DNA of 64,000 nucleotides from Amanita rubescens. Its lineage: Eukaryota; Basidiomycota; Agaricomycetes; Agaricales; Amanitaceae. Positions 1-55,300 of this stretch are shown here, one piece after another. The DNA lies in contig WION01000076.1 of assembly GCA_015039365.1 (NCBI GenBank), forward strand, positions 62,001-126,000, written 5' to 3'. The notes under the pieces were generated by a model. It was not told the DNA's origin, made no database searches, and saw only the letters and a list, made by a program, of their open reading frames with translations. Made by a program: the position numbers and the translations under genes. Within the stretch, counting starts at the first letter, position 1, and the number at the start of each line of letters is the position of its first letter.

Positions 1-2929
1 TGACCCTGTCTTTAACCTCCCATTGAACCCTTTTGGGGTATCAGGTTCAATAGATAGGTCTGACCAAATCAGTACATGTGGATAGTATCAAGGTCAAAAG
101 GGAACCAACCTTGTAATGTCCTGGGTTCGTCCCAGTTCCCAACCCTTTCAAGCCCTCTCCTATCAAACTCCATTCTGGGATCATACTCCATCCCTTCCAC
201 AAGTATATGTTTTGACCTGAATATCTTCTGCATGTCTCCAGGGGACAATGCTTTGAATTCTGTCTGAGAAAGCACCTCAAATGGGTACTCTCTACCTGTA
301 GAGGGTTTTGCTGCTTCAGCTAGTGCTTCAAGAAAGTTCATGTCTGCTTGGGACTGGTTCACACTTAACACATCTCAAATATTATAAGCTGATTGAAATA
401 ACTTACTCCAAGTGATGGCTTATAATCATTATATGAATCGAAGTTATTGCTATAGAGCTCAAGTGGCTGTTTGAGAGTTTTTCTTGCAATCAGTGTCCTC
501 TGAACAACATCCTCTTCAGGGAGTTCTGCCAGTTCATCCTGATATTGAGATGTTAGCTATTTTAACAGGACTGTATGATGATCTTACCCATTCATTTGTC
601 AAATCGATGATGTCATGTACCTCATGAGCAAAGGGAAACTTTTGCTGGGATTTCTTCCATTTATGACTAGTTCCCAATTTGGGACGATTAGGTTCTCTTG
701 ACTCTGTACTAGTTTGTGAAACTGAAGATGAGGATGTATCACTCTCTTCTTCCCTTGGATTGGGAGCCTTTTGCCTCTGTGCAGGGGTTGGTGGTGTCAG
801 GTATGAAGAAGAGGGTGCCACTGCTCCCTGCCCCACCCTACCCTTCTGTTGGATTCCTCTTGACCTCATGGAATAGGTCCCTTCTTCCTCATCACTCTCT
901 TCCTCTGATAAGAGAATGATGGATATTCAGTTCTCCTTGCCATGATACTCATACATGTAGAAAGCTCACCCATGGAAACATCCCTTGACTTCCTTTCTGT
1001 ACCCCTTCTTTTGCCTGCATAGTACCCAAAATCCATACCACCCATTGTATCATCCTCCATATTCTGGGCTTCTTCCTCCCTCACCTCATCTGTCACCTCT
1101 GACTCACCGTCTGATAATTCTGGAATTTCCTGCTCCTCTTCTTCCATCATATTCTCATCATGTTGCATGTTCTCTTTTCCTCCCTCCTCCCTCCCCTCTT
1201 TCTCTTGTCTGTCAACCTCTGGTACCATGCCTTCCAGCAAATCTTCCTCCATGTTGTCTGCATCTACTGCTGGCCCCACCTCTCCTACCAGTGTGTCAAC
1301 AACTGGCTCTTCACATTCCTCCCTCCCCACCTCTCCTACTATCCCTGTGTCAACCGCTGACTCTGCACTTTCCTGAGCATCACTATCTTTGTCCTTTGTA
1401 CCAGCCTGAGATACATCTTCCTGAGAATCCACATCCATGTCATTAGGCTCTACATCATTGCCCTCAGTATCATCTGCTGGCATATTATGACCTTCAACAG
1501 GAGGCAGGAGCAGTTTCGGCCAGCTCCTGGGTTTTGTAGCAAGCTTGATTTCATATTGTAATGCTGTGACCTCTTCCCCACCTTGTTCTATTGTTAGCAG
1601 TAATTTGTCACAAAACAGACAAATATATACCTTCTTCAAACCATCTGTCCTCTTCATGTATCATATAACGAACTTCATCCACTGCTCTACTGAGGAATGA
1701 TTCCAGTGTCATTTCTTGATTTTCAACATTCCCATCAGCAAGTGCAAACAAATACTTCCACAGCTCTTGCTCAAGCCTAGCTATGGAATCAGGTCTCTTA
1801 TTTCCCAGGCACTGCCATATCTATATTACATATGTTATTAAATTTAATCACAGAGGATTTGTGACATACTCCAACCAAGGCTGACCTGTTGAAGTCCTTG
1901 GTATGCCACTGCACTGGTGCAAGCAGCATCAGTGGAGACACTGCCAGTGCAAGGAAGAGGGGAAGACGCATTTGAGAAGGGTCATCTCTTCTCAAAACAT
2001 CTGGAACCTTGACATCACCCCAGCCCTGAAAAGATGTGATTAAATTTGGATGTGAACAGCAAGAAGACAAATTTCACTTCAGAAAAACATCGAATATGAC
2101 ATGCAGCAAGAACCAGATTTTGACGGATGATGAAAGCATTTGCTTTCTGGGTGAATCCATGAAATTGCCCCCAAAGGCCATTGAGAGCATTTGACAACTT
2201 GTCATCTGGCACATAACTTTGTGCTGAATTCTCTCTGCCTGTCTCAATTGCCAGATAGTGATTTGCATTCCCAATTAGTTTCTTGAGACTATGAATATGA
2301 TGGAATGACTTGTATAAGTTATGTCAATTACAATATCAAAAAGTTGATGTAAATAGTGAATGCTTACAGTGTTGTTCGGTGCTTTAAAGACCTGTTTATC
2401 ATGCTGTGGCACAATGCCCTGGTCATCTGGGCAAAGTGTCCATGTCATGATATCACATAGACGGTACATCATCATAATGTTAGTGGCCTTTGCAAAAAAC
2501 TTCTGATACTGTAGTTTTTCATATTTCCTCTTTGCAATTTTAATCCCCATCAGAGAGCAAAAGTAATGGTTGAACTGATGTACACCTCCAATATTTGGCA
2601 TATCAGGAGCTGTGGTTACTTCATTTTCAGTTTTTTTCACTTTATTTGTAAACAACTGGATATTTGTTAACAGGGTGTTGTGGTACTACCAAACAAAACA
2701 TGCTCACTGCAAATGTATCAGAAATGTGACCTGGAATGAGGTCTGGCCTGATGATGGCATCTGTAAACCAGGGCAGAGAAGCCAAGAAAGGAGACTGGGA
2801 GCGGTCAAGAATAAGACTTGAGGCTGATTGACTGTCATTGCCAGAGTCGTTGGCAACACTAGTAGTGGTAGCTAAGTCCACATTGCTATCAGCGGTGTGA
2901 TCAAGAACTGCAATGGAGGTTGATTGCAT
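1..2929 (-). CDS. Multi-exon hypothetical protein, C-terminus beyond window edge
   Basis: I do not recognise this gene with confidence. Coding exons can be followed on the minus strand from a Met at 2929 (MQSTSIAVLD...). They run through an exon beginning LFTNKVKKTENE near 2655, a segment near 2270-2060 (LNGLWGQFHGFTQKANAF), and one near 1790-1660 (RLEQELWKYLFALADGN). A long acidic stretch follows at about 1615-900, rich in Glu and Asp, then a Ser/Pro-rich basic stretch at 869-534 and a last segment at 371-1 (SPGDMQKIFRSKHILVEGME). Typical GT/AG boundaries join several of these, for example GCA|GTGAGC near 2693 to TAG near 2656. The last segment resembles the stretch that precedes JmjC-like folds in some Agaricomycete mobile-element-associated proteins, but that is a weak impression. 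The whole gene is CpG-poor yet keeps open frames. The exact exon chain was not resolved. Confidence 0.5.
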
Positions 2930-3554
2930 GTTGCTGTGAATAGCTTTCTGTCATTCTTTCTGGCAAAAGCAGGACATGTAAACACACCTTCTGATTAGGC
3001 TGATCAGTAGTTAAGAATGTGGTATAGGGAGAATTATACATGAGCAAGCACATGATGAGCAAGGGAGTAAACATATACCTTTCAATGAGATGCAGAGGAG
3101 ATGGTGAAAGATAAGGGGGCAATGATATGTACAAACAATATACCCACATATGGATTGATGCACAGCCATGAATTCTCACCTGCTGGGAGTGTCACATCCA
3201 CTCTGGTTTGTGCAGTTGGTGCACACCAAGAAACAAACAATGTGAATGCACAGACAATCTGTCATGCATCATGACAAGCAGTAGGTAATGCAGGTGCAAC
3301 TTGCCGAGAAAAAGCAAGCATTGAACACTGTGGCCAAGGAAATAATGTGGCAGTGTATGTCTGAACAAAGCCAAATACATAAAAACACAGGTCTACAATG
3401 AGTGTCCAGCTAGCAATGTCAATTTCAATTTGCTGTCCTGCACCTGCCTTACTCTGCTACCTTACTATATGGTTGCCTATAACTATTAAGAGGCATATCC
3501 ACTGTCTAAGTCTCTGCATGGCATTGACACCTCTGTGAAGACAGGGTGGTACCA
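2930..3554. other. CpG-poor intergenic DNA left of the palindrome
   Basis: No supported gene. The stretch is AT-rich with very few CG dinucleotides. At about 3331-3365 it holds a half copy of the 44-bp palindrome (GGCCAAGGAAATAATGTGGC), so the repeat family extends slightly beyond the inverted-repeat arm. Short open frames here look accidental. Confidence 0.6.
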
Positions 3555-6500
3555 CATTATTTCCTTGGCCAAGGAAATAATATGTGGCAGTGCATGTGCA
3601 AATAGAAACACATAAAAGTCATTACTAGTAGCTCCCTGTGGAGGGGTGCATTTCATGCAGTAGATCATGCCAAACAGGATAAGAGCTTGCAATTTGACAC
3701 TCAAGTATACCCTTTGAGAGATGGCAGCCATGACAGGTAAGCAGGGAGCTGCTAATGATCTTTGCATGTTTGGTTCTATTTACAAATGCACTGCCACATT
3801 ATTTCCTTGGCCAAGGAAATAATGTGGCAGTGTTGATTTGTTTGCTTTTGTCTTCCACCTGCCTTACTCTGCTATTTTGCATGATTGCTTATGTATAAAG
3901 AGGCATATCCTGCTGTCCAAATCACCCCATGGTAATAGGTATAAACTCTTTATGGAAACAGGGAGCTAACTGCAATGTCTGCCCTTTTGTGTGCTTGGTC
4001 CTATTTGGAAATGCACTGCCACATTATTTCCTTGGCCAAGGAAATAATGTGGCAGTGCATTTGAAAATAGAAACAAATGCACAAAAGCAGGCATTGCAGC
4101 TGTAGCTTGCAGTGTTGAAATAGACACTTGGATTGGTGGAAGCTCTTGTAGACAATCATGCAAAGGTGTTGTCAAACAGGACAAACACAGAATAACGCTG
4201 CAGAGAACTCTCATGCAAACAAATGGATGGTGCATAATGTGGCAGTGAATACAGTACAAATAGAATCATACATACAATAAATGGGCATTGCAGTTGGCTT
4301 CCTGTTTCTATAAAGGGTTTATGTATGTCATGGGGAGATTTGAACAGCAGGATATGCTTCTTTATAAGCAATCATGCAAGGTGGCAGGTAGAAGACAAAA
4401 GCAAATAAATAAACACTGCCACATTATCTCCTTGGCCAAGGAAATAATGTGGCAGTGCATTTCCAAATAAGACCAAACACACAAAAGGGCAGACATTGCA
4501 GTTAGCTCCTTGTTTCCATAAAGGGTTTATGCCATGAGATTTGGACAGCATGATATGCTTCTTTATACATATGTAAGCCATCATGCAAGATGGCAGAGTA
4601 AGGCAGGTAGAATACAAAAACAAATAAATAAACACTGCCACATTATCTCCTTGGTCAAGGAAATAATGTGGCAGTGCATTTCCAAATAAGACCAAGCACA
4701 CAACAGCAGACATTGCAATTCACTCCTTGTTTACATAAAGGGTTTATGCCATGGGGAGATTTGAACAGCAGGATATGTTTCTTTATACATAAGCAATCAA
4801 TGCAAGGTAGCAGAGTAAGGCAGGTAGAAGACAAACAAATAAATAAACACTGCCACATTATCTCCTTGGCCAAGGAAATAATGTGGCAGTGCATTTCCAA
4901 ATAAGACCAAACACACAAAAGGGCAGACATTGTAGTTAGCTCCCTGTTTCCATAAAGAGTTTATGCCAGACAGTTCCTTATACATAAGCAATCATGCAAG
5001 ATGGCAGAGTGAGGCAGGTAAAAGACAAAAACAAATAAATAAACACTGCCACATTATCTCCTTGGCCAAGGAAATAATGTGGCAGTGCATTTCCAAATAG
5101 GACCAAGCACACAAAAGCAGATATTGCAATTCACTCCTTGTTTCCATAAAGGGTTTATGCCATGGGGAGATTTGAACAGCAGGATATGCTTCTTTATACA
5201 TAAGCAATAGGGGGGCCCAAAGTTGCACATGGCATTGGCATATGCCGCTTTTGTCACATTTAGTCACAATTGTTCACACAATTAGAATATGTGCTGGTAG
5301 CTTGCTGCAACATTGTTTGGGTGCTGATCAGCTATTTAATTTGCATATGAGTTTCAATGTTATACAATGGAATGTTTATCATCTAAGTCTGATCTGTTGG
5401 GTAGAAAAGGTCTATATATATGATATTGTGCATTACACTACAGTTGATTGTTTGGCTCAATGGTTAGTTTGGAAGTATGTTTTTATTTAGCTTAGGGTTC
5501 AAACCCTGGGACATGCACTTTATTTTTTTGTCTCTCCACTTGTGTATTATGTGCTGAGTGATTTGTTTGTAGTATAAATTATTATTGCAAGGTACAGTGG
5601 TGGTTCATTTTGCATTAAAAAAAATGCAGTTAGCTGGAATTGAACCCTGGTAATGCATTTCCAAATAGTAGGACCATGCACACAAAAGCAGACATTGCAG
5701 TTAGCTTACTAGGCATAAACCCTTTATGGAAACAAGGGGTGAACTGCAATGTTTGTTTTTTGTGTGTTTGGTCCTATTTGGAAATGCACTGCCACATTAT
5801 TTCCTTGGCCAAGGAGATAATGTGGCAGTGTTTATTTATTTGTTTTTGTCTTCTATCTGCCTTACTCTGCTACCTTGCATGATTAGTAGGGCTCAAAGTT
5901 GCACATGGCATTGGCATATGCTGGTTTTGTGACATAAGCAGACTAGAATAAGCTGCCATGTCCTTTGAGTGGTCCATAAGGTAGATGCACTATTTGAGCT
6001 GTTGAACTTGAGTTTCCTCATCCAAAGCTACATGTAGAACCCGAGTTTGAGTAGTTGAGGTAAAGAGGTCTATATATAAGACATTGTGCTCTATAAATTC
6101 CAGCTAACTGCATTTTTTTTAATGCAAAATGAACCACCACTGTACCTTGCAATAATAATTTATACTACAAACAAATCACTCAGCACATAATACACAAGTG
6201 GAGAGACAAAAAAATAAAGTGCATGTCCCAGGGTTTGAACCCTAAGCTAAATAAAAACATACTTCCAAACTAACCATTGAGCCAAACAATCAACTGTAGT
6301 GTAATGCACAATATCATATATATAGACCTTTTCTACCCAACAGATCAGACTTAGATGATAAACATTCCATTGTATAACATTGAAACTCATATGCAAATTA
6401 AATAGCTGATCAGCACCCAAACAATGTTGCAGCAAGCTACCAGCACATATTCTAATTGTGTGAACAATTGTGACTAAATGTGACAAAAGCGGCATATGCC

Positions 6501-8182
6501 AATGCCATGTGCAACTTTGGGCCCCCCTATTGCTTATGTATAAAGAAGCATATCCTGCTGTTCAAATCTCCCCATGGCATAAACCCTTTATGGAAACAAG
6601 GAGTGAATTGCAATATCTGCTTTTGTGTGCTTGGTCCTATTTGGAAATGCACTGCCACATTATTTCCTTGGCCAAGGAGATAATGTGGCAGTGTTTATTT
6701 ATTTGTTTTTGTCTTTTACCTGCCTCACTCTGCCATCTTGCATGATTGCTTATGTATAAGGAACTGTCTGGCATAAACTCTTTATGGAAACAGGGAGCTA
6801 ACTACAATGTCTGCCCTTTTGTGTGTTTGGTCTTATTTGGAAATGCACTGCCACATTATTTCCTTGGCCAAGGAGATAATGTGGCAGTGTTTATTTATTT
6901 GTTTGTCTTCTACCTGCCTTACTCTGCTACCTTGCATTGATTGCTTATGTATAAAGAAACATATCCTGCTGTTCAAATCTCCCCATGGCATAAACCCTTT
7001 ATGTAAACAAGGAGTGAATTGCAATGTCTGCTGTTGTGTGCTTGGTCTTATTTGGAAATGCACTGCCACATTATTTCCTTGGCCAAGGAGATAATGTGGC
7101 AGTGTTTATTTATTTGTTTTTGTATTCTACCTGCCTTACTCTGCCATCTTGCATGATGGCTTACATATGTATAAAGAAGCATATCATGCTGTCCAAATCT
7201 CATGGCATAAACCCTTTATGGAAACAAGGAGCTAACTGCAATGTCTGCCCTTTTGTGTGTTTGGTCTTATTTGGAAATGCACTGCCACATTATTTCCTTG
7301 GCCAAGGAGATAATGTGGCAGTGTTTATTTATTTGCTTTTGTCTTCTACCTGCCACCTTGCATGATTGCTTATAAAGAAGCATATCCTGCTGTTCAAATC
7401 TCCCCATGACATACATAAACCCTTTATAGAAACAGGAAGCCAACTGCAATGCCCATTTATTGTATGTATGATTCTATTTGTACTGTATTCACTGCCACAT
7501 TATGCACCATCCATTTGTTTGCATGAGAGTTCTCTGCAGCGTTATTCTGTGTTTGTCCTGTTTGACAACACCTTTGCATGATTGTCTACAAGAGCTTCCA
7601 CCAATCCAAGTGTCTATTTCAACACTGCAAGCTACAGCTGCAATGCCTGCTTTTGTGCATTTGTTTCTATTTTCAAATGCACTGCCACATTATTTCCTTG
7701 GCCAAGGAAATAATGTGGCAGTGCATTTCCAAATAGGACCAAGCACACAAAAGGGCAGACATTGCAGTTAGCTCCCTGTTTCCATAAAGAGTTTATACCT
7801 ATTACCATGGGGTGATTTGGACAGCAGGATATGCCTCTTTATACATAAGCAATCATGCAAAATAGCAGAGTAAGGCAGGTGGAAGACAAAAGCAAACAAA
7901 TCAACACTGCCACATTATTTCCTTGGCCAAGGAAATAATGTGGCAGTGCATTTGTAAATAGAACCAAACATGCAAAGATCATTAGCAGCTCCCTGCTTAC
8001 CTGTCATGGCTGCCATCTCTCAAAGGGTATACTTGAGTGTCAAATTGCAAGCTCTTATCCTGTTTGGCATGATCTACTGCATGAAATGCACCCCTCCACA
8101 GGGAGCTACTAGTAATGACTTTTATGTGTTTCTATTTGCACATGCACTGCCACATATTATTTCCTTGGCCAAGGCAATAATG
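3555..8182. repeat. 4.6-kb near-perfect inverted repeat (two 2,087-bp arms, 454-bp spacer)
   Basis: The left arm 3555-5641 is the reverse complement of the right arm 6096-8182. Position x pairs with 11737 minus x along the whole length, so I found no net insertion or deletion. The only mismatches I saw are isolated, such as 3562/8175 and one in the palindrome near 4653. The arms end abruptly at 3554/8183 outside and 5642/6095 inside. The spacer carries one further copy of the same repeat unit (palindrome 5787-5830). No protein is predicted; mirror-image short frames in both arms are artefacts of the symmetry. Such structures can arise by inverted duplication, gene conversion or a fold-back element. 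An assembly artefact is also possible. Confidence 0.95.
3789..3832. repeat. 44-bp perfect palindrome, representative copy of an array
   Basis: This copy starts CACTGCCACATTATTTCCTT, is centred on TTGGCCAA, and reads the same on both strands. Further copies, some with one C for T change, begin at about 4014, 4414, 4633, 4848 and 5044 in the left arm, at 5787 in the spacer, and at mirror positions in the right arm. Spacing is mostly 196-225 bp. The DNA between copies is also repeated: CATTTCCAAATA, a GCAGTTAGCTCCTTGTTTCC block and CAGAGTAAGGCAGGTAGAA. The palindrome could be two terminal inverted repeats of small DNA elements joined head to head, but I see no target duplications. Confidence 0.9.
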
Positions 8183-13724: not shown

Positions 13725-15160
13725 CTCCGCTGATCACACCGTTGTAATCAGCGGTCCATTTTCACATCGTTTTGGTTGGTCACAATGCTATGCTTGACTT
13801 GAAAGAATATAATCTTCCATGCATTACAATGTCATGATTAGTTGATAATTGAAACAGATACATGAATGAAAATGGTCTGCTGATTGCACCATTGTAATTG
13901 GCGGTTTGCTTTCACATCGTTTTGGTTGGTAACAATGCTATCTTTGACTTGAAACAAAATAATCTTCTGCACATTACAATGTCATGATTGGCATATAATT
14001 GGATCACATACATGAATGAAAAATGGTCCGCTGATAACACCGTTGTAATCCGCGGTCCACTTTCACATTGTTTCGGTTGGTGACAATGCTAGGTTTGACT
14101 TGAAACAAAATAATCTTCAACAGATTGCAATGTCATGTGTCGCTGATAATTGGCACAAAATAGTCCACCAATGTCACCACTGTCATCCATGGCATAGTAT
14201 TTACGCATGGTTTCAATTGGTCACATCACTATGTTTGGCTAAGTAGAAAATAATCTTCAACATATTGCAACATCTCAAGTCACTGATAATTGGCACCAAA
14301 TAGTCCGCACATCTCACCACTGTCATCTGCGGTATATTTACACATGGTTTCAATTGGCCACATCACTATGTTTGGCTAAGTAGAAAATAATCTTCAACAT
14401 ATTGCAATGTCACTGTCTCAAGTCACTGATAATTGGCACAAAACAGTCCGCACATCTCACCACTGTCATCCGCGGCATATTTACACATGGTTTCGATTGG
14501 TCACACCACTATGTTTGGCCAAGTAGAAAATAATCTTCAACATATTGCAACGTCTCAAGTCACCAATAATTGGCACAATGAAACAGTCCGCACATCTCAC
14601 CACTATCATCTGCGGCATATTCACACATGGTTTTGATTGGTCAAATCACTATGTTTGGCTGAACATAAAATAATCTTCAACAGATTGCAATGTATTGAGT
14701 CGTTGATAATGGGCACAAAATAGTCCGCACATCTCACCACCGTCATCCGCGGCATATTTACACATGGTTTTGATTGGTAACAACACCATCTTTGCTGAAC
14801 GTAAAATAATAATCTTCAATAGATGGCAATGTCTTGAGTCGCTGATAATGGGCACAAAACAGTCCGCACATCTCACCACTGTCATCCGCGGCACATCTAC
14901 ACATGGTTTTAATTCGTCACATCACTATGTTTGGCTAAGTATAAAGTAATCTTCAACATATTGCAATGTCTTGAGTCGCTAATAATTAGCATAAAATAGT
15001 CCGCACATCTCACCACTGTCATCCGCGGCATACTTACACATGGTTTTGATTGATAACACCACTATATTCTGTGGCTAAATGAATACAAGTAAATCTTCCG
15101 CACATTGCAATACCTCAATCTGTGGATATATTTGACATGGGTCACACTTACTATCCTCAT
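13725..15160 (+). repeat. Satellite array, about ten units of 137-152 bp
   Basis: Units are marked by the phrase GTTTTGATTGGTCACA...CACTATGTTTGGC, seen near 13772, 13918, 14070, 14211, 14348, 14491, 14631, 14768, 14906 and 15044. Each contains GTCATCCGCGGCATAT (with the palindrome CCGCGG), then AAATAATCTTCAACATATTGCAA and TAATTGGCACAAAA. Divergence between units is modest. No coding capacity is supported; open frames here simply follow the repeat. Degenerate units may extend toward 15,300. Confidence 0.85.
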
Positions 15161-15768: not shown

Positions 15769-18629
15769 ATAATAAATTGCTAAGAACTATTTTTCTGTAT
15801 TCAGCACACTCTTCTTCAGATGGGCAATGCTTCATGATGAACCAATCATTGATGCCCATTGACCTCAGGTGGTTGTCCAGGTCTTGATCAACCAGTGAAT
15901 GCTGGGTGTTGAGATAATATTTCCAGGCCTTGGTGAAGCCATCCTTGGAATTGCAGCCTTGCTGGACAAGCCAGAAGGAATGTTCAAGACAGATGAGGAT
16001 GGCTGTACAGGTAATGGTAAGAAACTGTAAATATAAGAGAAAGGGTAAAATTAATCAGACCAATGAAACAATGCAAAGAAGGTGCCTATGTAATTGGGAA
16101 TACTTGAGTGAAGGGAATGAAAAGAATGAAATATGATCTTACATTGAATTGAGTGTCTATAAGACCCTGAACATGGTTCACCTAAATTCATGCCTATTAA
16201 TAAAGTAGGGCAAAGAGAGTAGGTGGGAGAAGACAGGTACAAACTAAATAAGATGTGAGAGTGATGTCAGCAATTCAGGAAATGCATAGTGACTCACTTG
16301 CTGGATGGGATTTCATAGCAACATGTCAGCAATTCAAATTGGGCTAGGAGATGCACAGTGACTCACAAACTGGATGGGATTTCATGGCAACATGTCAGCA
16401 ATTCAAATTGGGCTAGGAGGCACACAGTCACTCACTGCCTGGATGGGATTTCATGGCAACATGTCAGCAATTCAAATTGAGCTAGGAGGCACACAGTCAC
16501 TCACTGCCTGGATGGGATTTCATGGCAACATGTCAGCAATTCAAATTGAGCTAGGAGGCACACAGTCACTCACTCCCTGGATGGGATTTCATGGCAACAT
16601 GTCAGCAATTCAAATTGAGCTAGGAGGCACACAGTCACTCACTCCCTGGATGGGATTTCATGGCAACATGTCAGCAATTCAAATTGAGCTAGGAGGCACA
16701 CAGTCACTCACTCCCTGGATGGGATTTCATGGCAACATGTCAGCAATTCAAATTGAGCTAGGAGGCACACAGTCACTCACTTCCTGGATGGGATTTCATG
16801 GCAACATGTCAGCAATTCAAATTGAGCTAGGAGGCACACAGTCACTCACTGCCTGGATGGGATTTCATGGCAACATGTCAGCAATTCAAATCAAGTGAAG
16901 GAGGCACATAGCAACTCACCTTCTAGATATGAGGTGAATCATTTCTATCAATTTGGAATTCTCCATATAACTTGCATATTACCTCCTATACACTACATTC
17001 ACAAGTTGCCTTCCTATCACTTTGAAATTCTTACATTTTCCCCCTTATCATTTGCATAATTAGGATATTGCCAAATGAGCTTCATGTCATACTCACATAC
17101 TGAATATCCAGGTTAAACTTTGTCACCAATATTTGGTCATGATACTTACATCCTGAAACATCTGTCATCACCATCTTCCCTGGCTCAAGTAGAAGTGGAC
17201 TCTCACATAATCCTTCTCAATTTCAGTCATGGCTCAAGAAAATGCATTCAATGCATACCTGCCAATAGCAATGTCCAAACCAAGATGCAGCCTTGTAAAT
17301 CAAGGCAGACTTTGTTCATTTGAGCACTCAAATTTCTACAATTCAAGAAAAATTGTACCACTGTTGAGGTATCCTCAAAGATAAACCTGAAATAGAGAGA
17401 TAAATTGAAGCAACAGCAGACAAATGGATGACAGACTTGTTCACTGCATATTCAATGCAGACCTCTAGGTTATTCTGTTGGACAGTGACAAACAACATCT
17501 TCAGTGCCAAGTTGTCAATTGATGCCGCTGTCTGTTTGATTAGTTCCCCAACTTGTTCCTGATGATTACCTTCATCCTTCTCAATAGCTCAGGGACAAGC
17601 TATAAGTCCCAAGATTGGTTGCTAAAGGAGAAGAGACATACATTCAAATTGCACATATGCACGAGGTGAAGACTTGTAACCCTTAAGTGGCTTCTCAAAC
17701 TTCTCCTTCAAGGTAGCACAAGCAACTTCCCTATTCTCCTCATCTTCTTTGTTCCTATCATAGACCTGAGTGATGAGATCATCAAATTTTGTGAAGATTG
17801 CCACAACCGGAACTGTCTTTTATCAGTCACATTAAAGAGTTTGGAGTTTTTAAACAATCTTACCATTCCCACAATGTTTCTCATCAAAGAACTTCTGTTC
17901 CAATTCCAATAACGGGCGAGATACATCTGGACCAAAACAAAACCTGAATGCATTGTCAGTTATGCTACATAAAGGAAGGATTATAACACACCATATCGCA
18001 TGGATTTGGTCCTTTACTTCATTCGCTTTCGCCTTCTCCTGTATGAAAGAGTGTACGTCCTGAAGTTCCTGCTCACTTCCTGCCTCGAAACCAGGAGAGT
18101 CATGGAAGATGAACTGTGGGTTGCTCATGAAGGAAAACTCGTCATGAACATTATGAATCCCTCGCTATATCATCAAAGTCAATGACCTGGTTGAAGAAAT
18201 GCGCAAGGATCACCTTCGAGGTCGGGTTAATCTGTGGGTGAAGGGGTGATGGTAGTAGGGTATCAAGCGAAGTGGATATCTTACCTGGCTATAAACTGGA
18301 TCCTCCTTTGTATTGCAGATACGCTTCAGCAGCGTCGTTTTACCAGCATTCGCCCTCCCGATAACGAGGATACGGAAGTGGGTGTACTTGGCCCGGAGTT
18401 TCGCAGCTTCTACCAGGTCGGTCGTCATCATTGGTACAGTGGGTACTAGATCAACTGGAGGCGCAGAAATGGTTGGAGGCGAAACAACAACGGCAGGTGG
18501 AGCAACAACTGCTGGAGGCGAATTCGAGGGATTAGGAGGCGTGCTCTGCGATACCCGTCCGAACATCTTCTTCAAGCGATTGCGAAATCCCTTGGACTCT
18601 TTGGCAGTCTGCGACCGTTGGTCAGTCAT
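15769..18629 (-). CDS. GTPase-like G-domain protein with a 3-nt microexon array (paralogue B)
   Basis: Exons in transcript order: 18629-18285, 18231-18214 (18 nt), 18164-17992, 17943-17864, 17812-17642, 17569-17437, 17386-17311, 17215-17207 (9 nt), 17152-17150, 17099-17097, 17043-17035 (9 nt), 16985-16983, 16922-16920, nine triplets from 16852 to 16298, 16243-16241, 16166-16143 (24 nt) and 16024-15769. All phases agree. The protein starts MTDQRSQTAK and has a Pro/Val-rich N-terminus. Its P-loop GRANAGKT is at residues 91-98, then HDSPGFEAGS (switch-like) and TKFD (G4). The C-terminal exon (EHSFWLVQQG, GFTKAWKYY) aligns with that of the plus-strand paralogue. The last donor (TTAT|GTAAGT, phase 1) has no partner before the repeat at 15622, so the extreme 3' end is probably lost. 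The join from 17311 to 17215 is the least certain. The 5' half is CpG-normal, the 3' half CpG-poor. Confidence 0.72.
16298..16922 (-). repeat. 69-bp tandem repeat whose units are intron plus 3-nt exon
   Basis: On the minus strand each unit reads GTGAGTGACTGTGTGCCTCC ... GAAATCCCATCCAG followed by three bases and then the next GTGAGT. The triplets and positions are AAG 16922-16920, GCA 16852-16850, GAA 16783-16781, GGA 16714-16712, GGA 16645-16643, GGA 16576-16574, GCA 16507-16505, GCA 16438-16436, TTT 16369-16367 and CAA 16300-16298. From 16852 downward the period is exactly 69. More divergent units with the same layout lie on both sides: TTT 16243-16241, GAG 16985-16983, TAT 17099-17097 and GAT 17152-17150. 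The opposite strand has a 175-codon open frame only because 69 is a multiple of three. Confidence 0.85.
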
Positions 18630-49344: not shown

Positions 49345-52300
49345 ATGGCAGCTACAACTGCACCTTCACTAAGTAAGCTAATTTGTGTGTCCCAGCATTG
49401 TGATTCCTTGGCTGACACACATCAGATGCAGATGAGACACAAGTTCAAATGCTCAGGGAACGTTACCTATGCCCACACTTTCACATCCTTGTCATTGGGA
49501 GGGCTAATGCAGGCAAAACAACCATCCTGGAGAAGGTTTGTGGTGTAGCAAAGGGGACAAAGCCCATCATATATGACAAGGATGGTAAGTCAGTCTGTTT
49601 GTGCTTCCTTTGACTATTGAGTTTCTTGCAGGTAATCTGATTGAACAGTCTGAGATTCATTTGATGTCATCACTTGAGGTGAGTTGCATAATTATGTACA
49701 GTATAGATGTGCCAATTCACATGCAATGATAACAGAGAGGCCTGCATGATATTGAGCATCAAATTACATACCCTGGAAGTAACTTTATCTTCCATGACTC
49801 TCAGGGTTTTGAGTCTGGTTCAACTGAGGAATTGGAGATTGCTTGGAAGTTCATTGAAAAAAGGTCTGCAGAAACTGATATGAAGAATAGGCTCCATGCA
49901 ATTTGGTAACTTGCTTTATCCATTTACAGTACTGGCTGACCTTCTTCTAGGTACTGTATACCCATGGACAGCCCTCGTCCCATTCTACCTGCAGAACTTG
50001 AATTCTTCAATCAAGGGACAGGCAGAGGTGAAGTCCTAATGAGCTCATGTCTTATCATGTTGGTTTGGAGAGGTTGTTTATTGCTGCATCCTCTTCATTG
50101 GCCAAATTTCCACAGTGTACTGACTAGAAAACATTCCATTTACAGTTCCTTTGGTGGTTGTCTTCACTAAATTTGATGGTCAGATAGCCAGTGAATTTGT
50201 CAACTTGACTGGTGCAAAGGATGAAGATAAGTGGGACAGGGCCAGGGAAATTGCTGAAATCACTTTTCAGAAAGTTTATCTTCCTAAAGTTTTGGATGCC
50301 AAACATCCCCCCAAGGCATATGTGCGATTGGAAGGCAAGAATAATGAGAATTGCTTCCTGAAAATGAGAGTAATGTTATTTCATAGACATGGATTTACCA
50401 GAGATGAATTGTGCTGAATTAACTCGACAAACTGCAGATGCAATAGATGATAGCAGCATACAACAGCTATTTGTTTCAACACAAATGAATAACCTTGACC
50501 TTTGTGTTAAATCTGCACTTCAGTGAGGGTCACATTCAAGATGTTACACACATATGTACTAACATTGACATTGTTCAGACATATTCTGAGTCATAAAACT
50601 TGGACATGGAATTATATCATTCTCATAGTGTTTTCAAAATTTCCACATTTCTGGGTATGCATTTTTGCAAACTGCACATCAACATGAAAAACTAAATGGC
50701 AATAGGTGGACAGGGACCCAGAGGTAGGTGACCTTCAAATGGAATGTTAATACCTTCCAAAAATCCACCAGTTGAAAGTAAGTATCCTCCAATGCATTCA
50801 CATGAAAACAAGACTAGTCATGCTTCAGATCCCCATGGGTGAACCACAGGTTAGTTATCACCATATTCTTCATAGTAGGATCTGATGTTGTTGATATAGT
50901 GGGTAAGTCACAACATTGATCTAACATAGATCTCATATATCATCTCATGACAATAGTTTGTGAGTAATACTCCCTTTGTGATTGGCAGTCTTGTCCCATA
51001 ATCTACAGGAAGTGAGTGGGATGACTCAACTTTGATTTGTGGTGAATGATCTGATTGTGCATTGGCAATAGCAAGTGAGTTATTTTATATCATTGTAAGC
51101 AGACTCATCAATGCAGTTCTTGTGGACAGGGAGTGAGTAATACAACACTGCTTCTGCACCACATCTGACCTGCTGAAAGAAAGTGGGTAACATTGGTGTT
51201 TGTGCAGCTCAGTCATATGTAATTCAATGAACAACAGAAAGTTGTGACACATTATTATCTCAATGAGAGTCTCAACAATTTCATTGGATTTATAACAGGA
51301 AGTAAGTGGGATTTCTTTCTGCTTATAAACATTACATTTGGTCTCAAAACAACAGACAGTAAATATTTCTCCTTTTCAAATCCTCTTCATGATGTACTGA
51401 AAAATGAACAGGATGTATGTCATTTTTTTGTGAGATGTAAATTCACCACATGAAATACTATGGCAACAGAGAGTCAGTGGCATCATTTTCTTTCATCATG
51501 ATGCTAATTTCATTTTAAAAGGAAGTGAGCCATTCTGGTTATCCTGCTGTAGGACAATTTGGACGCATCCTTTTGTTCTACAGATTGTAAGCAATTTTGC
51601 AAGTTTTGTGAAAAGCAGTGAAATTACATATTTGAGCATAGAAGGTTAGCAGCATGTCATGCTGGTTTAGTGGCTCAGAAGATGACCTTATCAAAATTTT
51701 GCCTATGGCCAACAGTCTGTGAGTAGCATTTTGCAAGTATTTCTGAAAACCTGTTCTATGTATTTTTTCTTTATAACTGACAGGATGTGAGCAACACTGA
51801 ATTTTGTGGAAAGGCAGTTTCACCACATCATTTCCAATAACTGACAGTATGTGAGTGACATTCCACATGATGCTGTGAAAGGCCATCTCATATCTTTTCC
51901 TATGACCAATAGACTGTGAGTGACATTGCACATTTGGTGAAAGGAAGACTCCTCACATCTTTCCTATGACCAACAGGGAGTGAGTTACATTGCAAATGCT
52001 GTGAAAGGCAGTCTCATAACATATTTTGCTATGACCAACAGCTTGTGAGTGACATTGCACATTTTGTAAAAGGCAGCCTTATTGGCCCATCATCTCATCT
52101 CATATTTTCTTATGACCAACAGACTGTGAGTGACATTGCACATTGTGTGAAGGGCAGTCTCATCAGACCGTTTCCTATGGCCAACAGGGAGTGAGTGACA
52201 TTCCACACCTTGTGAAAGGCAGTCTCATCACATCTTTTATTATGACCAACAGCTTGTGAGTGACACTGCAAATTGTGTGAAAGTCAGTCTCATCATATCT

Positions 52301-55300
52301 GTTCCTATGACCAACAGTTTGTGAGTGACATTGCACATCTTGTGAAAGGCAGTCTAATCACATGTTTTGCTACAACCAATAGTCAGTGAGTGACATCCTG
52401 AAAGGTGGTATGACGATCCATCATATCCTATGATTAACAGGTTGTGAGTGCATGGCACATTTTGTGAAAGGTAGTTTCATCATATGTCCAACAGTTTGTG
52501 AGTGACATTACACATTTTGTGAATGGAATCTCACTTTTTTATAACCAATAGGGAGTGAGTGGCATTTGCAAATTTTGTGAAAGTCAGTCTCATCATGTCT
52601 TTTCCTATGACCAACAGAGAGTATGTGAAATTGTACATCTTGCAAAAGCCAGGCTCATCACATCCTTTTCCTATGACCAACTTGCAGCAAGTGAGTGATA
52701 TTGCACACACATATCTGAAAAGCAGGCTTGTCATATCTTTTGCTATGACACAAAGCAAGTGAGTGACATTGTACATTTTGTGAAAGGCACTCTCATCACA
52801 TCTTCTCCCATGACCAACAGTTTGTGAGTGATATTTCACATTTTGTGAAAGGCAGTCCTACTATCACATCTTTTCCTATGACCAACAGGGAGTGAGTAAC
52901 ATTGCACATTTTGTGAAAGGCACACTCATCACATGAATATTTTGCTATGGACAACAGCTTGTCAGTGACATTGCACATTATATGAGAGTCAGTCTCATGA
53001 CATCTTTTCCTATGACCCACAGCAAGTGAGTGACATTTCACATTTTGTGAAAGTCAGTCTCATCACATCTTTTTCTGTAACCAACAGACTGTGAGTGACC
53101 TTATATATTTTGTGAAGTGCAGTCTCATCACATCTTTCCCTGTGACTGACAGGGAGTGAGTGACATGCACATTTTGTGAAAGGAAATCCCATCAGATCTT
53201 TCTTATGACCAATAGCAAGTGAGTGACATTGTGCATTGTGTAAAATGCAGTCTCATCACATCTTTTCCTATGACCAATAGCAAGTGGGTGACATTGTACA
53301 TTATGTGAAAGGCTGTCTCATCACATCTGTTCCTATGACCAACAGACTGTGAGTGATTTTGTGAAAGATAGTCAGATCACATTGTTTCTTATGACCAACA
53401 GGCTGTGAGTGACATTGCATATTCTGTGTAAGGAAGTGTCATCATATCCTGTGTTGTGGCCAACAGACTGTGAGCAACATTGCACAATTTGTGAAAACCT
53501 GTCATATTCAGCTTTTCTTGTGCCCACAGCGAGTGAGTGATATTGCATATATTGCAAAAGCCAGTTTCATCACATCCCCCCCTATGACCAAGCAAGTGAG
53601 TGGTATTGTACATTTTGTGCAAGCCAGTCTCATCATATTTTCTCCTATGATCCATAGTATGTCAGTGACATTACACATTTTGTAAAATGCAGCCTCATCA
53701 TATTTTTTTCCTATGACCAACAGCAAGTGAGTGACATTGCACATCAGTGAGAGTTACTCTGATCACAACTTTTCTACGGCAAACAGTTTGTGAGTGACAT
53801 TACACTGTGAAAGCCAACCTCACCTCACCACATCTTTTTATGACCAACAGGAAGTGAGGGACATTGCACATTTTGTGAAAGGCACTCTCATCACATCTTT
53901 TCCTATGACAAATAGCAAGTGAGTGATATTACACATTTTGCAAAAGGCACTCTCATCCAATAACCCACAGCAAGTGAGCCTTGGCCACATTGCACATTTT
54001 GTGAATGCAGTCTCATAACATCTTTTCTTATGACCCACAGCTTGTGAGTGACTTTGCACATTTTATGAAAGGTGGTCTCATCACATAATCTCCTTTGACC
54101 AACAGACTGTGAGTGACATTGTACATTTTGTGAAAGGCAGTCTTGTCATATCTTTTGCTATGACCAACAGGAAGTGGGTCACATTACACATTTTGTGAGA
54201 GGCAGTCTCATCACATTTTTTTCCCTATGATCAGCGTGTGAGTGACACTGCACATTTTGTAAAAGGTAGTCTTACCATATTTTTTATGACCAACAGTGGG
54301 TGAGTGACATTGCACATTGTATGTGAAAGGCAGTCTCATCACCTCCCTTCCCTATGACAACAGCAAGTGAGTGACATTGGCCATTTTGTGAATGGCAATC
54401 TCAGCACATTCTTTCATGTGACCAACAGCAAGTGAGCAATATCACACATTTTGTGCAAAATAACTTCATCACATTTGTCCTATTACCAATAGCTTGTGAG
54501 TTACATTGCACATTTTGTGCAAGGCAGTCTCATCATTTGTGCTATGACCAACAGGAAGTGAGTGAAATTTCCAATTTTCTGACATGCATTCTCAGCATAC
54601 ATACCTTCATTCATGAAATCACCATATCAGAAAGTGAGTGTGTTTCCATATTTTTTCCATATCTTCTTTTTACATTATTACCATCATAGATTGTAAGATT
54701 TCATTTCAACTGACCTATTCCCACCTATTGGTTTGCATCCTAGTGTGTAGGTCCAATGATACATTGAATGTATTTCACTCTATCTCAGTACCAGCATGAA
54801 CTTTTCCTCCTGTTTGGAGATGAGGAAAAGGACTTTGCCATTAAGGTTTTTTTGTTTTTTTTTTGTTTAGTACAGAACTAATGCCCTTGCAACAAGCCTT
54901 CTCACCTCCAGGTCTTAGTTTGTAAATTATTCCTTTCCATTTACTGCAGTTATGCTTAGCCCTTCAAGCAATTAATATCATTGCCAAGCTATCCTTTTGG
55001 ATCAATAAACCATTTGTATCATCAGTCATAGGAGCCTTGGATCTGTACAACAAAAAAGGCTATGCGCAGAAGCTGAAGACTGACATTACTCCCAACTTTA
55101 TGCACTCTGGTCATCATGACTTTGTCACATTACTCTATAGGGAGGTGACTCATATTGATGGTATGTAATTTATCTAGTCATGCACTACTTATGAACAATT
55201 TATGGCAGGGTGAAACATATGCATGATATCCAGGTGATTTGTTAGACACATTGCCTTTTCATCAAGATCATATTTATTTGTACATAGATACTTCTCATAT

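Follow-up and report, generated by a model that had tools for sequence, protein, structure and literature searches.

The window analysed here, a stretch of 64,000 nucleotides of the Amanita rubescens genome (C715:62001-126000; the genome comprises 75.7 Mb in 786 contigs), carries on its forward strand a predicted GTPase gene. Between the GTPase-coding exons and the exons for a C-terminal domain lies an array of 62 triplets, each enclosed by the AG of one intron-like segment and the GT of the next. We consider it very probable that these triplets are single-codon exons that are spliced serially into a variable stretch of the GTPase protein. Exon-by-exon splicing is supported for the gene family, and the window gene is likely assembled codon by codon as well, and would lengthen or shorten in the same steps, because 18 triplets of a sibling gene are joined in order in a transcript-like sequence.

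The window gene and its one-codon array

Once spliced, the 5' exons (Table 1) give an open frame with the P-loop GRANAGKT that terminates in FPHFW. They match MMR_HSR1 weakly (E 0.0015, below the Pfam cutoff), and homologs of the window GTPase were retrieved by protein search. The three linker exons encode VDRDPE-LK-IPMGEPQ. The 3' exons, which encode YQHELFLLFGDEEKDFAIK-PSHLQVLVS-INIIAKLSFWINKPF...HIDGM followed by a stop, are similar to the C-terminal domain of transcript-like proteins. The exon at 54897-54921 was inserted by analogy with relatives, and the complete spliced model with this extra exon has 464 residues, which replaces the 498-codon frame of the first-pass annotation.

All 62 triplets (50900-54746) belong to one array with the pattern AG-NNN-GT and together encode the peptide WFEQGKKETDREIKSDYTGLTGLFSVFGRQQFGLQTGQQTATRQYQFEQQLTERWQQLEKIC. 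TAA, TAG and TGA are absent from them (0 of 62), every one is in phase 0, the flanking exons are likewise both in phase 0, and the complete join gives an open frame; the first-pass annotation had the triplets, the lack of stops and the common phase right. The array block (50850-54788) consists of 63 GT...AG intron-like segments of 42-78 nt (mean 59.6). A lower limit of about 47 nt, as annotated earlier, holds for all of them except the last and shortest (54747-54788, 42 nt), and GTGAGT, put forward as the usual donor, describes the array in part, alongside others such as GTTAGT, GTAAGT, GTTGTG, GTATGT and GTCAGT. The introns of the conserved part of the array are free of the tandem repeat; the variable part is made up mostly of tandem-repeat units of ~65 nt. 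The GC content at third codon positions is 0.048 in the array versus 0.379 in the upstream exons, a bias of the third base that probably reflects splicing.

Table 1. Positions in the window of the GTPase gene with its one-codon array and of the second array with its GTPase gene
Feature	Position	Strand	Remarks
GTPase 5' exons	49345-49372, 49426-49584, 49632-49678, 49736-49905, 49951-50027, 50146-50334, 50387-50522, 50579-50654	+	predicted, ordinary; 50146-50334 with GC donor
Three linker exons	50706-50723, 50772-50777 (6 nt), 50829-50849	+	predicted from splice sites and open frame
Conserved array part	50850..51718	+	15 one-codon exons, peptide WFEQGKKETDREIKS; family consensus ends Y
Exons of the conserved part	50900, 50957, 51009, 51072, 51130, 51180, 51238, 51299, 51356, 51412, 51470, 51522, 51584, 51642, 51716	+	
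Variable array part	51719..54788	+	47 one-codon exons, 51784 to 54744-54746, peptide DYTGLTGLFSVFGRQQFGLQTGQQTATRQYQFEQQLTERWQQLEKIC
3' exons	54789-54845, 54897-54921, 54969-55168	+	predicted; open frame
Second array	16298..17152	-	12 triplets, mostly between copies of a different 66-nt intron
First bases of second-array triplets	17152, 17099, 16922, 16852, 16783, 16714, 16645, 16576, 16507, 16438, 16369, 16300	-	
Second GTPase gene, domain exons	17424..18440	-	tblastn; 29% identity to the first

The 3-nt spacing of the array is not a product of chance, because a YAG stands exactly 3 nt upstream of 592 of the 651 GTRAGT donors in 16 oriented array stretches, against 1 of 32 such donors on the antisense strand of the array DNA. 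The next commonest distances in the same stretches were 0 nt (14 donors) and 6 nt (8 donors); in the remainder of the window, 13 of 59 GTRAGT donors had a YAG at 3 nt, and most of these lie in the second array. When the exon length was left free between 1 and 12 nt, chaining gave 443 exons in 14 stretches, of which 432 were 3 nt long; the splice-site weights came from training on 3-nt sites. The unit CCAACAG-NNN-GTGAGTGACATT has 1214 exact occurrences genome-wide, and its reversed pattern has none.

Paralogous arrays and the change of their units

One-codon arrays extend beyond a single gene, to 40 scored places with a common 1.2-kb array start (including the window and some near-identical copies, of which the one on C99 has 100% identity across 1.2 kb) and to the second array on the minus strand of the window. 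For comparison, 21 paralogs were taken, i.e. the window and 20 picked from the 40 places. Their first 15 triplets encode W-F-E-Q-G-K-K-E-T-D-R-E-I-K-Y with few changes. Each of the 16 introns that separate the first 17 triplets, by contrast, occurs in 3 to 10 different lengths. Identity to the window is 88.6% in the triplet columns (17 triplets, the 16th and 17th of which open the variable part) versus 79.8% in the intron interiors, and gaps account for 0.2% versus 2.8%. The aligned triplet cells are 3 nt long in 355 of 357 cases; the other two (L066, L067) are readable as the triplets ACA and GAA under another gap placement.

Seventeen stretches were fetched (the window, L009-L021 and L054-L056), with GTPase exons present in 13, C-terminal exons in 14 and both in 12, the C-terminal match of L054 being weak (E 0.042). 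L011 and L014, which start at a contig end or within the gene, carry the C-terminal part only. In L055 and L056, the 18th one-codon exon is followed by an exon of 15 nt whose donor is GC; the array otherwise consists of one-codon exons. The triplets of L054, L055 and L056 were picked by hand, mostly from the site list, with sites that broke the spacing dropped; the L054 peptide includes two exons with GC donors, and the S in it represents an exon of 4 nt. L019 (C26:115000-121000, minus strand, oriented 1970-5798) contains 41 strict AG-NNN-GT triplets with 0 stops and more varied codons. A further array runs from L011 (8883-9825) into L012 on C3, just downstream of a C-terminal domain and with no GTPase exons found between; we read it as an orphan or truncated copy. 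L054 (C1:30600-37600) shows, at 1900-1920 and 3600-3720, a 4-nt exon (AGCT), an exonless AG-GT and a frame break, and is probably a decaying copy, or else a case of unusual splicing.

In 14 stretches whose splice paths were chosen blind to the codon, 628 triplets contained 0 stops; this set leaves aside L014 and L019 and is partial for the window (55 of 62), L010, L016, L017, L020, L021, L054, L055 and L056. Among the 1214 exact units, TAA and TAG do not occur and TGA occurs once (G000:C537:2929-2950, minus strand). As 172 of these units begin with T and 672 end in RA, ~95 TRA triplets would be expected if the positions were independent, an expectation to be taken with caution because the units are related by duplication. 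The third base is G or C in 59 of the 1214. These counts bear on the view that most arrays are decaying pseudogene satellites of which few are expressed. The 4-nt exon of L054 with the frame break near its end, together with the exact unit that carries TGA, would suit such decay, but the 628 triplets without a stop and the 355 of 357 aligned cells that keep 3 nt despite varying intron lengths make it a very improbable account of the arrays.

An intron together with a single codon forms the repeat unit. Over a 2.5-kb array, L079 (C79) and L080 (C667) show 0 substitutions, and one of the two is longer by a single 65-nt unit, equivalent to one codon. Comparison of 39 L016 units of 65 nt with their consensus gives 4 differences in 2418 intron positions versus 29 in 117 triplet positions, and an internal duplication of 18 units in L079 has 11 of 1122 intron positions changed versus 11 of 54 in the triplets, including whole-codon swaps such as TAT to CGA beside an unchanged intron; the unit counts of L079 and L016 cover exactly 65-nt units only (37 of 39 and 39 of 43 intervals, respectively). 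L016 and L079, although on different contigs, have one intron consensus in common. Within L016 (C13:579000-588500), 35 units with an identical 62-nt intron carry five codons (CAA, CTA, CTT, CGA and GCT), which differ mostly in the second base; CCA is absent. L056 has two extra codons relative to L055; between these two arrays 24 of 50 introns changed length and 0 of the compared triplets did, a result that is partly by construction since AG-NNN-GT sites alone were listed.

Such changes are consistent with a process in which exchange takes place inside near-identical introns and carries codons along as cassettes, the peptide being under selection; hypermutation is a conceivable alternative. We tentatively entertain, at somewhat less than even chances, a genome-wide shuffling of codons in which cassettes recombined within and between arrays would rewrite the hypervariable segment residue by residue; in such a system the introns would act as homology arms, and assembly would fall to the spliceosome.

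The likeness of the L079 and L016 introns, together with the 1214 exact units, could also be explained by the insertion of introner-like mobile elements at each codon boundary of an exon that was once contiguous. Such elements are known from fungi, where, in the excerpts of PMC4457414, they are likewise near-identical introns in hundreds of copies, and the L019 array, which stands without GTPase or C-terminal exons, may sit in another gene. Introner-like elements are, however, described there in unrelated genes, unlike the Amanita introns, which are in tandem, at a fixed 3-nt spacing and, judged by the 17 fetched stretches, mostly in one gene family. Invasion would also have to yield phase 0 without exception and an even spacing of 3 nt, and it accords poorly with the single-unit length change between L079 and L080, with the unrelated intron of the second array and with the presence of parts of the same GTPase family in 15 of the 17 stretches, all but L012 and L019. 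We therefore regard it as improbable.

Transcript-like proteins and the case for serial splicing

P0124, encoded on a JGI contig of 965 nt, is a contiguous protein of 117 residues. From residue 11 to residue 117 it is identical (107/107) to L018 (C25) spliced by the triplet rule, across 18 one-codon exons in a row and a further three ordinary exons. The corresponding genomic stretch of L018 is ~1.5 kb long, and the contig is thus without introns because that length exceeds 965 nt. P0123, from a contig of 1033 nt, agrees with L056 at 46 of 59 residues without gaps (one-codon exons supply 54 of the positions and the 15-nt exon the other five; at most 13 in 2000 shuffled orders), and P0016 (478 residues, 1486 nt) agrees with L054 at 42 of 50 residues (shuffled maximum 13), both being comparisons of diverged relatives. 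The three contigs are taken as RNA-derived because the introns are missing and the contigs are too short for them. Understood in this way, P0124 places the L018 exons in mature RNA, as the definition of a microexon has it, and the window triplets would be microexons by extension. P0001 and P0011 also contain contiguous peptide similar to the conserved part of the array.

An AlphaFold model of P0016 (mean predicted local distance difference test score, pLDDT, 80.1; predicted template modelling score, pTM, 0.80) puts the predicted equivalent of the array (~327-376) with the GTPase domain on one side and a helical C-terminal domain on the other; residues 324-358 have pLDDT <50 and a confident helix is predicted at 361-382. 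The best PDB matches of the model are the bacterial dynamin-like protein (BDLP) and immunity-related GTPases (IRG), with E from 8.5e-6, at query-normalised template modelling scores (TM-scores) of 0.26-0.37 that are too low to establish membership. A role of the array segment in recognition would be speculation.

The first-pass annotation had weighed splicing one by one against removal of the whole block in one step, as a satellite-filled composite intron in which the triplets would be non-coding spacers. Much of the block is indeed a 65-nt tandem repeat, 17 of the 18 database gene models read stop before FPHFW or within ~60 residues after it, and in the other one, P0049, an annotated A. rubescens protein, FPHYW leads into the C-terminal domain with nothing like an array between them. 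Spacers of a composite intron would be absent from mature RNA, but the triplet residues of the siblings are found, in order, in P0124, P0123 and P0016. The preservation of 15 triplets at the codon level in 21 paralogs and the absence or near absence of stops also speak against removal in one step. We find the composite intron scarcely credible for the window: it was rejected for the family and is contradicted for L018 by the transcript-like matches. One-by-one splicing is thus favoured for the family, and we infer it for the window gene.

The exons could also be real and joined combinatorially, with random or controlled skipping giving rise to a cloud of in-frame isoforms. Skipping of any exon would cost one residue with the frame kept, as no frameshift follows because all exons are 3 nt long and in phase 0; P0001 and P0011, moreover, break off within the array. 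P0014 and P0017 have near-identical N- and C-terminal parts and different array segments, and are either hypervariable paralogs or alternative products. Such a pair would be expected from skipping, but the two may simply be paralogs, and P0124 includes all of the last 18 exons, while the match of P0123 to L056 is gapless over 59 residues once the 15-nt exon is included. Combinatorial joining is therefore rather unlikely, though it deserves more weight than the composite intron.

Several points weigh against serial splicing. For L018, the splice path set before P0124 was examined contained 17 of the 18 triplets, but the last triplet (TGT) and the ends of the ordinary exons were placed with P0124 in view. 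In L018 (minus strand, 2672 to 2333), the start of P0124 falls within the final 14 nt of an intron, so that one intron is retained, and the first 10 residues of P0124, which comprise this intron end and unplaced bases, depart from the model. The 15-nt exon of L056 was added after P0123 had been seen. The array likeness of P0001 ends after WFEKGKKESDREIEYDGG, 17 or so array residues, and P0011 stops before the C-terminal domain; joining may be imperfect. P0049 is either an array-free gene or a mis-annotation. The protein searches turned up no transcript of the window gene itself, and a search with window residues 283-462 gave no match at E<=0.001. By tblastn, L012 and L019 yielded neither GTPase nor C-terminal exons; with related proteins as queries, L012 gave repeat-intron matches only and L019 none. 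The slower change expected of triplets was not seen between L055 and L056 (triplets 5/156, introns 105/2952; Fisher p 1.0), in a comparison that left out one long intron pair and the two extra L056 codons. Finally, stop avoidance is confounded as evidence for coding and was downgraded, because TAA or TGA after CAG also creates a GTAAGT or GTGAGT donor and because TTA, a non-stop, is likewise depleted.

Proposed splicing route, known systems and other repeats of the window

For the serial splicing of one-codon exons, exon definition over 3 nt would hardly be possible, and each intron of ~60 nt would instead be recognised by intron definition; the repeat introns have a strong donor and the conserved 3' end CTATGACCAACAG. 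Splice sites 3 nt apart would be sterically exclusive, so that the introns would be removed in succession. Unequal exchange in near-identical introns would add residues to an array or remove them; stops would be kept out of the codons, whose variation would stem from selection or from reshuffled units.

No such arrays are described among the matches listed in open-licence PMC text for microexons in fungi or Amanita, tandem, consecutive or one-codon exons, microexon genes of schistosomes and aphids, and introners. The closest systems among these matches are the schistosome micro-exon genes (MEGs), the aphid bicycle and megacycle genes, and isolated exons of 1-3 nt. Set beside them, the Amanita array appears extreme in exon size and number, and its repeat unit is described in none of these matches or excerpts.

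Schistosoma MEGs are given exons of 6-81 bp, most of 15 bp (3-81 in the abstract), with 10-20 exons per gene and introns of 0.1-5 kb in the excerpts of PMC10526429. Their likeness to the Amanita family lies in short, serial, mostly frame-preserving exons and in a gene family that is hard for automatic annotation. The Amanita arrays differ in having ~50-85 exons of 3 nt, introns of ~60 nt that are in many cases tandem repeats; exons of 3 nt and window introns of 42-78 nt fall outside the MEG pattern of 6-81 bp exons and long introns. Aphid bicycle and megacycle genes are, according to the excerpts of PMC9168663, also rapidly evolving and rich in microexons, with over 100 in megacycle for ~2000 residues. 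Megacycle exons thus average more than one codon, unlike the 3-nt exons of Amanita; the internal exons of bicycle genes are almost all in phase 2, whereas those of the window are all in phase 0, and no unit of intron plus codon is described in those excerpts.

Accurately spliced exons of one codon or less are reported, in excerpts, for Arabidopsis APC11 (PMC4674806), Fusarium CYP621A (PMC12940212) and Drosophila hth (PMC7392893), where they are isolated, in contrast to the dozens in series in Amanita. Intron definition with stepwise removal was proposed for the 1-nt exon of APC11 (PMC4674806), and stepwise removal of introns was inferred for plant microexons (PMC8831610), again as far as the excerpts go.

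With arrays of this kind, the splicing of tiny exons would move from an isolated curiosity to runs of ~50-85 in series, and it would become directly testable how far intron definition is limited sterically and in what order introns are removed. A unit of intron plus codon could let a protein lengthen or shorten by single residues, and some arrays have different codons beside identical introns. Because the gene models read mostly break off at the array, the annotations of Amanita may lack parts of proteins, and others perhaps do too.

The second array lies in another GTPase gene, a paralog of the first, and its intron repeat is unrelated to that of the first array. Across eight of its units, the introns show 7 differences in 528 positions versus 7 in 24 for the triplets, and the codons GCA GAA GGA GGA GGA GCA GCA TTT CAA stand beside nearly identical introns. 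Just downstream of the second GTPase gene, tandem repeats with a period of ~137-150 nt occupy 13726-15065 of the window. Two further blocks, at 4324-5208 and 6769-7354, have a period of ~217 nt, and their consensus units resemble reverse complements of each other.

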